Shown here: piece by piece, positions 26,312 through 59,911 of the stretch
How positions within the stretch are numbered: position 1 is the stretch's first letter
How the letters are laid out: every line of letters starts with the position of its first letter
Source: Pseudoxanthomonas sp. GM95
GTDB taxonomy: Bacteria > Pseudomonadota > Gammaproteobacteria > Xanthomonadales > Xanthomonadaceae
Reading direction: 5' to 3'
Assembly (NCBI RefSeq): GCF_900109775.1
Contig: NZ_FOAX01000001.1
Span: forward strand, 1,054,001-1,118,000
Length of the DNA: 64,000 nucleotides
Translations under genes and position numbers: made by a program
Notes under the pieces: model-generated
The model's database searches: none
Seen by the model: the letters and a program-made list of their open reading frames with translations, nothing else
Told to the model about the DNA's origin: nothing

Positions 26312-26359
26312 CGACAGACCCCGCGGTATGCTGTTGGTCTTATCCAAACAGGAGTCCTC

Positions 26360-54761: not shown

Positions 54762-56252
54762 TTACAGGCCACGCCTGATCAGAGTTCGGTCGATGCGCCC
54801 GCGGAGCCTGCTGGTTGGAGGCGCTTCGCCATCTTGCATTGCTGTTCTTGCGGTCGGCGTCCTGGAAGCGGGTGCTGAAACTACAGGCGACATCTGGCTG
54901 GCCTGATCAGGCACGACCGAGGCGGTGAGCTTGGGTGTGATGTCGGTGCCTTGGACAATGCCCAGCGCCGCGTATCCGGTGTAGCCAGGGAATACCGCGC
55001 TGAGGTTGGGATTGCCCATGCGCCGGATCAGGATGTCCGACATCACACGCCGGTAGTCAGTGGTGGCAGGAACATCGCCGTAGGTCGGCGACAACGCGAC
55101 CGGGTCCAGCCCCGGCCAGGTGCCATAAAACCTGCGTCCATTGACCGCGCCACCCAGTACAAGCAACGGATTCCCGTAGCCATGGTCGGTTCCGCCGCTG
55201 GCGTTGGCACGCACGCGCCGGCCGAATTCGGACTGCACCACGACCGTCACCCGGCCCATGTTGCCGGTGGCATTGAGATCGGCGAAGAACGCAGACAGCG
55301 CGGTTGAGAGCTCTGCGATCTTGTTCTGGTAGTAGTGGTAGCCGCTGCCGGCTGTGCCCTGACCGTCGTGGGTATCCCAGCCGCCCAGGTCCAGTGTGGC
55401 GTAGCGCAGGCCCAGGTTGAAGCGGATCGACTGCGCGACCGTCCATAGCTGGTTGGCGAAGGTGCCGGTCGGCCAGGTGCCGGGCAATGCGACGAACGGC
55501 TGGGCATTGATCAGGGCCAGCGAGGCATTGGCACTGGCGCCATCGCGTTCCAGGCCAGTGCGGCCGGCCCAGAGTTTTTCCAGGACTTGGTTATGTCCTT
55601 GGAAGCCGCTGGGCGCGCCACTGCGGACGGTCTGCCATTGATAGGCGCCGGCGTTGATCGAGAAATCGCCTGGACTGGCCATGACCATCGCCTCCGGGCT
55701 GCCGAGCAAGCCAGAGGGCTGCGTGCTGGCCACGCCGAGCAGCGGGACGCTTGCGCTGACCGCCTGGCTGTTCCAGGCGCGGGTCATCCAGCCGGTGCCT
55801 GCGTACTTTCCTGGCGATCCCGAGTCGATATAGCGCTGCGCATCGAAATGACTGCGCGTCACCGTAGTCGGCATGCCGCAGGCATGCACGATCGCCAGGT
55901 TGCCGTTGGTCCACAGATCGCGCAGCCCGGTGGCCGAAGGGTGCAAGCCAAATCCCGTGGCCGAACCATTGGAGAGCGTGAGCGGCAGCGCCGCGTAGTC
56001 GCCGCTGGCCTTGATCTGAAGGTTAGGCCGGGCATCTTCGTAATGAGTGCGGTCAACGCCACTCACCGGCACGACCAGGTTCAGGCCATCCATGGCGCCG
56101 CGCAGGAAGACCTGGACCACCGTGTCATAACTGTTGGCCGCGGCTAGCGCGTTGCTGGAGAAAAGCAGGCCCGCGCCGCAACTGCTGACAACCGTGGCAC
56201 CGGCCGCGGCGCTCTTGATGAACTCACGCCGGTTGAGTTTGAAGTGGGTCAT
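54762..56252 (-). CDS. DUF1501 family protein with Tat signal
   Basis: A 496-residue exported protein. Its N-terminus NRREFIKSAAAGATVV has the twin-arginine pattern, so it should be folded before export by Tat. The family is sulfatase/alkaline-phosphatase-like; FLRGAMDGLNLVVP near residue 50, DLGGWDTHDGQ and SEFGRRV then GTDHGYGN are the typical segments. A C-terminal tail of about 70 residues after the family core is poorly conserved and rich in Pro/Arg. It is 10 bp downstream of the DUF1800 gene, its usual partner. Function unknown. Confidence 0.85.
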   Translation of the reverse strand: MTHFKLNRREFIKSAAAGATVVSSCGAGLLFSSNALAAANSYDTVVQVFLRGAMDGLNLVVPVSGVDRTHYEDARPNLQIKASGDYAALPLTLSNGSATGFGLHPSATGLRDLWTNGNLAIVHACGMPTTVTRSHFDAQRYIDSGSPGKYAGTGWMTRAWNSQAVSASVPLLGVASTQPSGLLGSPEAMVMASPGDFSINAGAYQWQTVRSGAPSGFQGHNQVLEKLWAGRTGLERDGASANASLALINAQPFVALPGTWPTGTFANQLWTVAQSIRFNLGLRYATLDLGGWDTHDGQGTAGSGYHYYQNKIAELSTALSAFFADLNATGNMGRVTVVVQSEFGRRVRANASGGTDHGYGNPLLVLGGAVNGRRFYGTWPGLDPVALSPTYGDVPATTDYRRVMSDILIRRMGNPNLSAVFPGYTGYAALGIVQGTDITPKLTASVVPDQASQMSPVVSAPASRTPTARTAMQDGEAPPTSRLRGRIDRTLIRRGL

Positions 56253-56262
56253 GGGCGTGAAC

Positions 56263-58107
56263 TCAGCGAGTAAAGAATTCGGGGGAAAGAACGAGCAGCG
56301 ACACCATGCTGCGCAGCCGCTGCTGGTTGTAGTGCTTCTTCAGGTCGTTGGCCGACCAGGTGTCGTTGTCGGCTATCACATCGCTGGCAGCATTGCCGTT
56401 CTGTGCCATGAAGTTCACCAGCGCCTGTTTGCGTTCGGCCGCGGGGGCGTAGCCGAGTACCCGCGTAGACCAGTAATCGACCAGATTGTTGGCGGTCCAG
56501 TTGGCCACTTTGCTGCGACTCTCGGCCAGGATCGCCGCGAGTGGCGTGGTGCCGTCGCTGGTTTCGGTCAGCCAGTTGACCAGCTTCCAGGTCATGGCGA
56601 ACGAGTTGGAGCCGGTCCAGCTGACCGAGACATCCGGATACCCGTTGGGCGATGGCCAGTTATAGGGCGTGTGGCCGGTATAGCCGAAGCGCCACATGAA
56701 CTCGTCGCTCTTTGCGTTGTCCAGCCGCAGGGTCCAGTCGCTGCCCAGGACACGCATGGCCGCGACGGTGGCTTCAAACGGGCGCCGCACCTTTTGCCCC
56801 CACGCGTTGAACATCGGCGTCGAGTTGAGGATGTGACGGAGCACCAGCTCGATCTGGTTGGCGGCGCGCCAGTTGTCGCGGAAGACCCTGGCCGCGCTAT
56901 CGATCAGTGACTGGGGCGGCGTGTCGTTGATGAGGCGGCGAATGATCTTCTTGCAGATGAACTTGGCAACGCGCGGATGGCTGGCCAAGCGGTCCATCAC
57001 ATCGCGTCCGTCCTTGAGGTCCGGCTGCTCTGGATAGAGCATCACGCCCAGCAGGAATTTGGGCCCGGCATCATGCCAGGCCTGGCGATAGACGAACGTG
57101 CCGTCATTGTCGTTGGGATACTGCCAGTGGCCATTCTTGATGGTCCAGCCGGTGAAAGCCGCGGCGGTTTCGTACACGTCGATGTCGGTGTAGCCGATCG
57201 GATAGCTGGGGTCCTCAGGGCAGGGCGGGACCTGGAAGGGATCCATGAAGCCCAGGTAGTTTTCGGCGCCGAAGGTATGCAGTTCCAGCAGTTCGCGGGC
57301 AAAGTTCTCGTTGGGTCCGGAGCGGGAGTTATCGATGTTGTCCAGGAAATACATCATCGCCGGGCTCCTGGCGACCGACTCCAGCATCGTGCGGAAACTG
57401 CCGAATGCGTTGGCGCGAATCACCTCGCGATCGTAATGCGCGAAGATCGGGGCGATGCTGTACTCGGTGCCCTGCGTGTTGAAGTGGGCATGCCAGAAAT
57501 TGACCATCACCTCGAACAGCTGGCGGCGCGAGTAGGTGGCGCGCACGAACGACGCCCGCTGCACTTCCCAGCCTGGCCGCATGCGCGTGCTGTATTCCGG
57601 ATCGCCCAGGGCGTGGTCAGCCCACAGTTGCGGTAGCGACTTGCTCAAAGTGCTGTAGCCGGCTGCGTTGAGCCGGTTGGTGACCGCGCTGTCGTCAATG
57701 GCCGTGTAATCGAGCTGCCAATCCACCCAGTTCGCCAGGCGGGCGCTGTCGCTGGTCCCGAGTGCATTGAACTCGGCGATCGTGGTCGTGGTGGCGCCGT
57801 AGCTCAGGTTGTCCAGCATGCGAACGGCAAACGGCGCGCGCGCCATGGTCAACAGCGCCGGTGTGGACTGATTTGCGGTGACGTGTCCGGTGTTCGCCGT
57901 CTCTTCCTTCGCAGGCGGCAACGTAGAAGTGGCGAACTGCGCGTGATACAGCTTGCGCTGGCGGGCCCGGACCTGCGCTTGCAGCGACAGGTTCGTGCCA
58001 GGGCGACCGACGCGCTGGGCCAGAGGTTCGGACACGGCCTGGGCGGGAGCGGAGCGCACGGCGGCGCGAACCCGCTCCCCTGGCACGCGGTCTACGCGTC
58101 GCGCCAT
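56263..58107 (-). CDS. DUF1800 family protein
   Basis: A 614-residue protein with the DUF1800 features: LLDNLSYGAT-like N-terminal region, NFWHAHFNT, ENFARELLELHTFG (seen as NFARELLELHTFG), and LASHPRVAKFICKKIIRRLI later. ATG 58107 has GGAG about 11 bases upstream; an upstream ATG at 58197 adds 30 residues without a signal peptide. No signal sequence is visible in either version, though its DUF1501 partner has a Tat signal. Such pairs occur next to each other in many genomes; their role is unknown. A TATACT on the minus strand (58147-58152) fits a -10 box with a short leader. Confidence 0.85.
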   Translation of the reverse strand: MARRVDRVPGERVRAAVRSAPAQAVSEPLAQRVGRPGTNLSLQAQVRARQRKLYHAQFATSTLPPAKEETANTGHVTANQSTPALLTMARAPFAVRMLDNLSYGATTTTIAEFNALGTSDSARLANWVDWQLDYTAIDDSAVTNRLNAAGYSTLSKSLPQLWADHALGDPEYSTRMRPGWEVQRASFVRATYSRRQLFEVMVNFWHAHFNTQGTEYSIAPIFAHYDREVIRANAFGSFRTMLESVARSPAMMYFLDNIDNSRSGPNENFARELLELHTFGAENYLGFMDPFQVPPCPEDPSYPIGYTDIDVYETAAAFTGWTIKNGHWQYPNDNDGTFVYRQAWHDAGPKFLLGVMLYPEQPDLKDGRDVMDRLASHPRVAKFICKKIIRRLINDTPPQSLIDSAARVFRDNWRAANQIELVLRHILNSTPMFNAWGQKVRRPFEATVAAMRVLGSDWTLRLDNAKSDEFMWRFGYTGHTPYNWPSPNGYPDVSVSWTGSNSFAMTWKLVNWLTETSDGTTPLAAILAESRSKVANWTANNLVDYWSTRVLGYAPAAERKQALVNFMAQNGNAASDVIADNDTWSANDLKKHYNQQRLRSMVSLLVLSPEFFTR

Positions 58108-58146
58108 GGGTGGTTCTCCAAACGAAGTGATCCCCTGTTGGCGGCG

Positions 58147-58198
58147 AGTATAGGCAGTTATTGCCGTTTGTTTGCGATGCATGTCACGTCGCGACATG
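58147..58198 (-). promoter_or_regulatory. Candidate promoter and inverted repeat for the DUF1800-DUF1501 genes
   Basis: On the minus strand TATACT (58147-58152) is a good -10, giving a leader of about 33 bases. CATGTC-N7-GACATG (58180-58198) is a perfect inverted repeat just upstream and could be an operator. No good -35 hexamer is visible, which would fit an activated promoter. Confidence 0.35.
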
Positions 58199-58352: not shown

Positions 58353-58841
58353 ATGCCCTACACCCCCATCGTCGCCACGCTCGGTTACGTGCTGTCCCCG
58401 GACGGGAAGCAGGTGCTGATGATCCATCGCAATGCGCGGCCCAACGACATCCACCTGGGCAAGTACAACGGGCTGGGCGGCAAGATGGAGCCGGACGAGG
58501 ACGTGCTGGCGTGCATGACGCGCGAGATCCGCGAGGAGGCCGGGATCGAGTGCGATGCGTTGCACATGCGCGGCACGATCAGCTGGCCGGGCTTCGGCAA
58601 GCAGGGCGAGGATTGGCTGGCGTTCGTGTTCGTCATCACCGCCTGGAGCGGCACGCCGCTGACCGAGAACCCGGAAGGCACCCTGGAATGGGTCGACGTG
58701 GACAAGCTGCTGGAGCTGCCATTGTGGGAGGGCGACAAGCACTTCCTGCCGCTGGTGTTCGATGAAGATCCGCGCGGCTTCCACGGGGTGATGCCGTACA
58801 AGGATGGCCGCATGGTGTCGTGGAACGTCTCCCGGGCCTGA
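58353..58841 (+). CDS. NUDIX hydrolase, 8-oxo-dGTP diphosphatase-like
   Basis: A 162-residue cytosolic NUDIX enzyme. The full box is present: GGKMEPDEDVLACMTREIRE (about 40-59) followed by EAGIE, with the metal-binding glutamates in REIREE. TPIVATLGYVLSPDGKQVLM at the start is like MutT-type YtkD/8-oxo-dGTPases. ATG 58353 was chosen; the open frame upstream is not NUDIX-like. The likely role is cleaning oxidised nucleotides (family knowledge). Confidence 0.88.
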   Translation: MPYTPIVATLGYVLSPDGKQVLMIHRNARPNDIHLGKYNGLGGKMEPDEDVLACMTREIREEAGIECDALHMRGTISWPGFGKQGEDWLAFVFVITAWSGTPLTENPEGTLEWVDVDKLLELPLWEGDKHFLPLVFDEDPRGFHGVMPYKDGRMVSWNVSRA

Positions 58842-59290
58842 GCAGGACTGGGATGCAGTTCATCCACAGAACGTGTGGATGACTGCTGGGGCAATCGTGT
58901 GGATAACTCGCGCGCGCCCTTTGTTCATGCGCCTTGCCGCCAGGATGGCGAAAAAATGACCAGTTCGGGTCAGTGTATCCACAGGGGGTGTGGATGACTT
59001 CCGGACAAAGATGTGGATAACCGCAGGAGCGCGTTGCAGGGCAGGCGTGTCAAGCGGATTGGCGGAAAAATGACCAGGCGAAGTTGAAGGAATTTCGCAA
59101 CCGTCGTGGAACATGCGAGGCCAGCAGCCGCGCAATGTCCGGCGCATGACCGTCATCCATTGTTCGCCCGGTTGTCATCGGGGCAAGCGGCGATGTTGCA
59201 ATGCCAGATCCCAACGATGCGATCGTCTTGATCGCCACGCGACACGCGGGTTGGCACGCTGTCGTCCATTCCACGTCACCGGCCAGGCCC
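58842..59290. other. Intergenic region with DnaA-box-like tandem repeat
   Basis: 449 bp without a supported gene. The left half holds the repeat described separately; the right half (59090-59290) shows nothing I can name. Confidence 0.5.
58860..59088. repeat. Tandem repeat of about 115 bp with six DnaA-box-like sites
   Basis: Six sites match TTATCCACA at eight or nine of nine bases: 58860-58868, 58874-58882, 58898-58906, 58975-58983, 58989-58997 and 59012-59020. The third and sixth are exact (as TGTGGATAA). The first two and fourth/fifth form inverted pairs with a 5-bp spacer. The three sites of unit 1 recur in unit 2 at offsets of 115, 115 and 114, and a trailing GGCG-A(n)-TGACCAG element also recurs (58947 and 59061), so the whole is a diverged direct repeat. 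Confidence 0.8.
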
Positions 59291-59911
59291 ATGAACCGAC
59301 AACGCCACTTTTCAATGCTGCGCGATTTCCAGCTGGCCGACTGGTTCACGCTGGGCAACGCCTTCTGCGGCAGCGGCGCGGTATTCGCCGCGCTGCATTA
59401 CATGCAGGAAGGCCGTCGCGGCGTGCTGCTGGCCGGCATGGCGCTGATCCCGCTGGCCTTTATCTTCGATGCGCTCGATGGCCGGGTGGCACGCTGGCGC
59501 AACTCGGCCTCCACGCTGGGGCGCGAACTGGACTCGCTGGCCGATGTGATCTCCTTCGGCGTGGCGCCGGCTGCACTGGCCTATGCCTGCGGCCTGCAGG
59601 GCGGCTGGGACTGGCTGGTGTTGAGCTACTTCGTCTGCTGCGGGGTCAGCCGCCTGGCGCGCTACAACGTCACCGCCGAGGCGCTGTCGGGCGACGAGGG
59701 CAAGGTGAAGTACTTCGAAGGCACGCCGATCCCGACCAGCCTGGTGCTGGTGGTGGTCCTGGCCATCGCTGCGGCCGGTGGGCACATCGGGCCGGCGATC
59801 TGGTGGGGGCAGTGGCAGCTGGGGCCGTGGCAGTTCCATCCGCTAGTGCTGCTGTACGCGCTGTCCGGCTCTTTGATGATCAGCAAGACACTGCATATCC
59901 CCAAGCCCTAG
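59291..59911 (+). CDS. pssA: CDP-diacylglycerol-serine O-phosphatidyltransferase-like protein
   Basis: A 206-residue integral membrane CDP-alcohol phosphatidyltransferase. The family motif is complete: DALDGRVARW, then G with D and D at the spaced positions (TLGRELDSLAD), about residues 60-85. Several membrane helices are seen. The KYFEGTPIPTSL loop is typical of PssA, which makes phosphatidylserine for phosphatidylethanolamine. ATG 59291 was chosen over ATG 59201 because the family starts here. Confidence 0.9.
   Translation: MNRQRHFSMLRDFQLADWFTLGNAFCGSGAVFAALHYMQEGRRGVLLAGMALIPLAFIFDALDGRVARWRNSASTLGRELDSLADVISFGVAPAALAYACGLQGGWDWLVLSYFVCCGVSRLARYNVTAEALSGDEGKVKYFEGTPIPTSLVLVVVLAIAAAGGHIGPAIWWGQWQLGPWQFHPLVLLYALSGSLMISKTLHIPKP

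Follow-up and report, generated by a model that had tools for sequence, protein, structure and literature searches.

A conserved, tandemly duplicated DARS-like cluster of DnaA boxes in Pseudoxanthomonas sp. GM95

What is a dense, duplicated group of DnaA-box-like sites doing between a NUDIX hydrolase gene and a pssA-like gene, away from oriC? The group lies in a 64,000-nucleotide stretch of the Pseudoxanthomonas sp. GM95 genome (hereafter the window, from whose first letter all positions are counted), where a first-pass annotation had reported six sites matching TTATCCACA at eight or nine of nine positions within 161 bp, two of them exactly, in two diverged copies of a unit of about 115 bp, each with an inverted pair and a third site. 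That annotation had left four roles side by side: titration of DnaA as at datA, reactivation of DnaA as at DARS sites, a secondary origin, or regulation of the two flanking genes. Our analysis favours, as the probable explanation, a duplicated, Xanthomonadaceae-type DARS-like site that would regenerate ATP-DnaA.

Anatomy and conservation of the tandem units

We scanned the window for sites within one mismatch of TTATCCACA and recovered the described arrangement in full, with six sites spanning 161 bp: box I, box II and an exact strong box in each of two units (Table 1). The remaining two such sites of the window start at 26340 and 53187. A window total of eight is mildly unusual (shuffle mean 3.07; 2 of 100 shuffles reach eight), and the exceptional feature is the clustering of the sites rather than their window-wide count. 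Across the genome, TTATCCACA occurs at 225 sites with at most one mismatch, 10 of them exact. A reversed control pattern yields 269 sites at the same tolerance, so the DnaA box is not enriched genome-wide, and with so few sites per genome six in 161 bp are far beyond chance (Poisson expectation approximately 5e-11 per genome); the genome scan that the first-pass annotation had called for thus marks the density as exceptional. Four of the ten exact sites belong either to the window pair (two) or to an inverted pair at priA (two), described below.

The two units, each roughly 105 bp long, repeat with a period of 115 bp for boxes I and II and 114 bp for the strong box and the dyad, and their three repeated blocks are 79–94% identical, in line with the two diverged copies first described. 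New relative to that description are a 17-bp dyad in each unit and a degenerate box sitting between box II and the strong box. Rfam at gathering score had no match in the 52–64-kb part of the window.

Table 1. Features of the tandem locus and its flanking genes (window coordinates; offsets are start-to-start from box I of the same unit)
Feature	Position	Strand	Evidence
Unit 1 DnaA box I (TCATCCACA)	58860..58868	+	Identity 0.88 in six tandem loci, versus 0.52 and 0.42 in flanks
Unit 1 DnaA box II, inverted to box I, 14 bp start-to-start	58874..58882	-	Spacing as in E. coli DARS1 and DARS2
Unit 1 degenerate box at E. coli box III position (+26), 4/9	58886..58894	-	Sequence
Unit 1 strong box, exact TTATCCACA, +38	58898..58906	-	Identity 1.0 in six tandem loci
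Unit 1 dyad TGGCGAAAAAATGACCA, +86	58946..58962	.	One mismatch to Fis consensus GnnYAnnnnnTRnnC; identity 0.945 in six tandem loci
Unit 2 DnaA box I (GTATCCACA)	58975..58983	+	Box match; conserved among tandem loci
Unit 2 DnaA box II, 14 bp start-to-start from box I	58989..58997	-	Box match; conserved among tandem loci
Unit 2 degenerate box, 6/9, +25; 2 bp from box II, 3 bp from strong box	59000..59008	-	Sequence
Unit 2 strong box, exact TTATCCACA, +37	59012..59020	-	Sequence; conservation in tandem loci
Unit 2 dyad TGGCGGAAAAATGACCA, +85	59060..59076	.	Two mismatches to Fis consensus; identity 0.90 in six tandem loci
Element unit 1	58859..58964	+	Profile R1, 65.7 bits (unit belongs to the R1 training set)
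Element unit 2	58976..59078	+	Profile R1, 90.1 bits (unit belongs to the R1 training set)
NUDIX hydrolase gene, upstream; start codon assumed	58353..58841	+	PF00293
CDP-alcohol phosphatidyltransferase (pssA-like) ORF, downstream; probable start at 59291	59201..59911	+	PF01066

The locus is intergenic between the NUDIX and pssA-like genes, and searches named its neighbours as NUDIX, CDP-alcohol phosphatidyltransferase and PHA-synthase-subunit genes. Further upstream, two minus-strand genes at 54762–58197, which we take to be DUF1501-like and DUF1800-like, separate pnp from the NUDIX gene; as pnp lies close to NUDIX in three relatives (L010, L011 and L014), these two genes look inserted.

To describe the unit across relatives, we built a sequence-only profile, R1, from 50 units. 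These were BLAST loci filtered for a fixed box I–II spacing of 14 bp and a strong box at +36 to +40, so both spacings are partly selected by the filter, and the dyad and the degenerate box lie outside it. The strong box starts 37 bp after box I in 41 of these units and 38 bp after it in 9, and the dyad starts at 85 bp in 42 and at 86 bp in 8. At +25/26, 12 bp before the strong box, the degenerate box matches at a mean of 5.3 of nine positions versus 0.3–3.7 at the other tested offsets, and 48% of the units reach at least 6/9. Box II, the degenerate box and the strong box thus follow one another on the same strand in steps of 11–12 bp. E. coli DnaA is reported to favour box pairs 2 or 3 bp apart (PMC11317965), an arrangement that this series provides twice.

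Conservation among relatives, which the first-pass annotation had proposed as a check, follows this anatomy. In six tandem loci (five adjoining NUDIX and one, L013, adjoining pssA), identity is 85–100% in the boxes and 90–95% in the dyads, compared with 52% in the upstream flank (mostly the tail of the NUDIX gene in loci next to it) and 42% in the downstream flank; the linker is 48% identical in unit 1 and 86% in unit 2. The earlier suggestion of selection on the sites therefore holds for boxes and dyads against flanks. Its extension to the duplication itself lacks support, because several relatives carry a single unit at this locus (for example, L095, L098 and L110). Within the unit 2 linker (59021–59059), a TGTCAAG block without a known partner recurs in most of the 50 units.

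Gene contexts and chromosomal position

In the GM95 genome, R1 finds three units, namely the window pair and one beside tyrA (prephenate dehydrogenase), with the next match at E = 0.025; BLAST of the locus against the same genome returned only the self-match and is too insensitive for the tyrA copy. Matches at E ≤ 0.001 occur in 147 of 249 genomes (GM95 included), mostly 1–7 per genome, with the highest counts in G124 (13, the maximum) and G130 (12). A pattern scan of named genomes that ignored gene context gave at least 119 stretches, and among the 80 listed, 67 are Lysobacterales by title (Xanthomonas, Stenotrophomonas, Pseudoxanthomonas, Luteimonas, Luteibacter and unnamed members) and 13 are not. 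The element was placed in 117 of 121 examined loci, which are not independent of one another: 27 adjoin the tyrA cluster and 18 adjoin members of the NUDIX, pssA or phaE clusters, and the element is also found next to genes such as Dcp peptidase/CFA synthase, miaA and phoH.

Some arrangements differ in copy number or host. In one relative (L013; G004:C13:171267-173532), two tandem pairs are separated by about 2 kb, and in other genera short arrays pack 4–6 units into roughly 1 kb or less (L255, L256 and L257). The three-box pattern is also present in uncultured alphaproteobacterial or proteobacterial metagenome-assembled genomes (L099, L101 and L138), beside genes of one shared cluster, a member of which in L101 matches ankyrin-repeat families.

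This distribution bears on several of the alternatives. A dispersed REP-like or mobile repeat, with DnaA boxes arising by chance, would be in keeping with the 12–13 matches in G130 and G124 and with the short tandem arrays, yet it is disfavoured and highly unlikely: GM95 carries three units at two loci plus a weaker site at priA, the gene contexts are common to several genera, and conservation covers boxes and dyads to the exclusion of the unit 1 linker and the flanks. The many-copy dispersal that the first-pass annotation had named as counting against a replication role is therefore absent from the GM95 genome, although genomes with a match carry between 1 and 13. A DnaA-controlled regulatory region of the flanking NUDIX and pssA genes draws on the position of the element upstream of pssA and on reports that E. 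coli DnaA regulates several promoters (PMC11317965); the same element, however, sits beside unrelated genes (tyrA, Dcp peptidase/CFA synthase, miaA and others), and a scan of 58800–59350 for one promoter type found no sigma-70-like promoter, which leaves such control quite unlikely. Because the element recurs beside so many other genes, titration and a secondary origin are likewise less supported than when first listed.

The locus is also not oriC, as had been stated from the outset. It lies away from dnaA and dnaN, and dnaA is on another contig (G000:C6) of the nine-contig assembly. Around that dnaA, near-consensus boxes are few (G000:C6:617639-617682 and 619207-619227), one of them exact. 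Clustered DnaA boxes could in principle mark a secondary or cryptic replication origin, an extremely unlikely reading given that the neighbours are NUDIX, CDP-alcohol phosphatidyltransferase and PHA-synthase-subunit genes, that genomes carry more than one such locus, and that the GM95 dnaA region has no match to R1 or to two further models, R2 and R3, introduced below.

We next placed the element on closed chromosomes. With a cut of E ≤ 1e-8, set after the position table had been seen, all 39 strong loci in 16 closed genomes lie at 24–50% of the chromosome from dnaA. The cut drops two G230 loci just under it (3.3e-8 and 1.9e-7) at 18–19%, loci of G246, G142, G226 and G178 at 26–47%, ten weaker matches (3.9e-6 to 6.5e-3) at 3.5–12%, of which the six checked are all at priA, and one G010 match (5.6e-3) beside dnaA. 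The table, entered by hand, omits further tandem-array rows, the GM95 (G000) rows, whose dnaA is on another contig, G122, G073 and G195:1030692 (E = 0.0025, 1 kb from dnaA). Of the 39 strong loci, 31 are oriented with the replication fork and 8 against it, the latter being the tyrA locus in G017, the Dcp/CFA locus in four genomes, and loci in G074, G195 and G199. In six closed genomes of the genus, the distance between dnaA and the NUDIX-linked locus is 35–38% of the chromosome. The E. coli sites lie at 33% (DARS1) and 21% (DARS2), on an assumed oriC position, and their relative distances from oriC are reported to be conserved among strains (PMC4585315).

The terminus-half pattern is suggestive only, since loci shared through synteny are not independent of one another. 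A site tied to the terminus half, such as a late-replicating DnaA sink or a mark of fork direction, would account for the 39 of 39 positions and the 31 loci along the fork; set against that non-independence, the 8 loci against the fork and the two G230 loci at 18–19%, we regard it as very unlikely. Position also bears on datA-like titration or inactivation, in which strong boxes would soak up DnaA, or drive ATP hydrolysis with IHF, and so delay initiation. Dense high-affinity boxes suit this, two copies would double the capacity, and chromosomal boxes are reported to act as titrators in E. coli (PMC12371093). The same source describes E. coli boxes as accumulating towards oriC, however, which argues against simple titration at loci lying 24–50% from the origin in relatives. 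The element region has no good IHF consensus, and the inverted pair with a dyad at +85 is a DARS1-type feature. Overall, titration is an unlikely, although not negligible, account, and the DARS-like reading is the one that we pursue.

Relation to DARS1 and DARS2

The boxes of E. coli DARS1 begin at 0 (I), 14 (II) and 26 (III), and those of DARS2 do likewise; the spacing is described as the same at the two sites, with box I opposite in orientation to II and III (PMC5742627). Both window units have opposed boxes I and II at exactly this 14-bp spacing, and the locus is intergenic (NUDIX/pssA) and lies between oriC and the terminus, judging by its distance from dnaA in the six closed genomes of the genus. 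At +26 on the box II strand, where E. coli has box III, the units hold only a 4/9 or 6/9 match at +25/26, with the strong box at +37/38. Because this strong third box is displaced, the window element is a DARS-like variant that we set apart from DARS members proper.

A classical layout exists in the same genome. Just upstream of priA (G000:C8:280205), TTATCCACA is followed by its inverted partner at +14, by TGTGCATGG, a 6/9 match, at +26 and by TGGTGAAAAAAACGCCA at exactly +85. Boxes at 0/14/26 with a dyad at +85 are present at priA in all seven Lysobacterales loci checked (GM95 and six relatives). A dyad at about +85 defines what we call here the DARS1-like class; it lies at +86 and +85 in the window units and at exactly +85 in the tyrA and priA elements.

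We then asked whether loci chosen without reference to the dyad also carry it. A 131-bp bait containing E. coli DARS1, searched by BLAST in 369 genomes of the class, matched 30 places in 29 genomes, and priA flanks 10 of the 30, in other orders. All matches fall within bait positions 14–66, which cover the boxes plus no more than 13 bp, and the dyad register, which begins at about bait position 104, is outside every one of them. Of these places, 27 have DARS geometry, and in 22 of the 27 a Xanthomonad dyad matrix, searched between +78 and +92, scores best at +84 to +86 (combined P = 6e-14; P < 0.05 in 14 of 27), the exceptions being L272, L281, L287, L293 and L299. With one locus per genus, 19 of 24 have the dyad at +84 to +86, a count reached by none of 300 column-shuffled matrices (maximum 18, mean 4.7). 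When palindromes are scored without a matrix, the peak is likewise at +85 (3.04 versus a mean of 1.76, s.d. 0.35). Across per-genus offset windows, 78–92 gives a combined P of 5e-11; of the five others, 63–77 gives P = 0.0018 and 123–137 gives P = 0.03. An exact match to the Fis consensus given in PMC8682772 (GnnYAnnnnnTRnnC) lies at +84 to +86 in 15 of the 27 loci; 5 others have one mismatch there and 7 have two to four, and control windows in the 15 exact loci match exactly in at most 1.3% of cases. In E. coli DARS1 itself, TGGCG starts at +85 and the dyad score is weak (P = 0.096). A dyad at the DARS1-like distance in loci picked without it ties the window element to DARS1.

A third model, R3, built from E. 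coli DARS1 and 14 DARS1-picked loci that we chose from the 27, points the same way in part. It matches the priA site (3.4e-8), E. coli DARS2, which is outside the model (1.4e-4), the tyrA element (7.8e-4) and, more weakly, unit 1 (0.008), but unit 2 reaches only E = 0.45 over part of the model, and these weak scores count against the link; the two units are its only matches in the 64-kb window. R3 also gives no match at E ≤ 1 for two elements of the family from other genera (L261 and L269). In the R3 alignment of the tyrA element, 12 nt are inserted between boxes II and III and 12 nt removed from the linker, so that the dyad keeps its distance. R1 matches neither E. coli DARS locus (E ≤ 10, and again at E ≤ 1), and the link to DARS therefore does not rest on R1. 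The R2 model matches 343 of 369 class genomes, and many outside the class as well (234/299 in all), in part by matching the boxes alone, and R1 matches had supplied 5 of its 20 rows; we rejected R2 counts as a gauge of DARS spread and use R3 and the dyad tests in their place.

As for partner proteins of the kind present at DARS2, no IHF consensus at up to one mismatch occurs in the window element region, and the ten Fis-like matches at up to one mismatch in that region are within the shuffle range (mean 7.2, maximum 16). The dyads stand one and two mismatches from the Fis consensus in the window and three at priA. A Fis homologue is present in 18 of 18 genomes tested (48% identity to the E. 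coli protein in GM95), so the dyad could have a Fis-type partner; the sequence would equally allow another dimeric protein.

Taken together, these comparisons suggest that an ancestral, priA-linked element of DARS1 type may have given rise to a derivative with an extra box register, which would then have reached a few loci and been duplicated here; the direction of these steps is our inference. More tentatively, DARS1-type sites could form one old gammaproteobacterial family with a Fis-type dyad at +85 and a frequent home at priA, which in Xanthomonadaceae might have gained a fourth high-affinity box, placed a further 12-bp register along, and spread, singly or in tandem, to several terminus-half loci for multi-station recharging of DnaA.

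Predicted function and comparison with known systems

In E. coli, ADP-DnaA bound head to head is reported to lose its ADP with the aid of further DnaA, and with IHF and Fis also at DARS2 (PMC5742627, PMC4245941 and PMC8682772). By analogy, DnaA, probably ADP-bound, would occupy boxes I and II head to head and then extend along one strand to the weak box at +25/26 and the strong box at +37/38, in 11–12-bp steps like that between E. coli boxes II and III. The Fis-like dyad at +85 would hold a DNA-bending dimer at a fixed helical phase. Such an assembly could free ADP from DnaA as DARS1 and DARS2 do in E. coli, allowing ATP-DnaA to build up before the next initiation, and the second unit may add capacity or cooperativity. 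The conserved element is real, and as a tandem, four-box DARS-like variant it is more than a lone cluster of boxes; of the roles first listed for it, DARS-like reactivation gained most from the 14-bp pair and the dyad distance.

Published statements place DARS-like sequences in many proteobacteria (PMC10380432) and, with reference to Fujimitsu et al. 2009, in several Gammaproteobacteria (PMC4451416); in the literature surveyed, DARS has been studied in E. coli. Within the partial coverage of work on DARS and DnaA boxes in Xanthomonas, Pseudoxanthomonas, Pseudomonas and Vibrio cholerae and on priA, we found no description of the element, the +85 dyad or the priA location, and an earlier description is possible; the Fis-type dyad would be a part of DARS1-type sites that the DARS literature surveyed does not note. 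If our reading is correct, it would extend known control of the cell cycle by DnaA beyond E. coli, and an expanded, differently spaced DARS in Xanthomonas, Stenotrophomonas and Pseudoxanthomonas would help to explain how other Gammaproteobacteria organize their DnaA cycle. With one box shifted by a register and the +85 dyad left in place, such a site would offer a probe of which spacings matter for ADP release, and the predicted Fis-type site of DARS1-type elements is directly testable.

Among known systems, datA shares with the window element a cluster of DnaA boxes outside oriC. It differs in its IHF site, of which no good counterpart was found at the element, and in lying near oriC in E. 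coli (PMC10380432), whereas the strong loci of relatives are far from dnaA; the comparison covers IHF site and position. DARS2 (rppH-mutH) has the same box I–II spacing, and Fis sites are reported as part of it (PMC4245941 and PMC8682772). Unlike the window element, which has no clear IHF consensus, DARS2 extends over 455 bp with IHF and several Fis sites. DARS2 also lies near rppH (L039; E. coli 2968500-2972500), which we take to be a NUDIX-family gene, as the window element lies near a NUDIX gene, probably by coincidence.

The closest likeness is to DARS1 and its relatives. E. coli DARS1 (bioD-uvrB), reported to work in vitro without further factors and to measure 101 bp (PMC5742627), shares with the window units opposed boxes I and II at 14 bp, a weak box in the +26 register, TGGCG at +85 in DARS1 where the units have their dyad, a total length of about 100 bp, and an intergenic position in the outer part of a chromosome arm. 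What sets the window units apart is an additional strong box at +37/38, a more complete dyad at +85/86, their duplication in tandem and another gene context. DARS1-like elements of other Gammaproteobacteria likewise pair boxes I and II at 14 bp and mostly hold a dyad at +84 to +86. They differ in having box III at +26, whereas the strong box of the window element stands one register further along.
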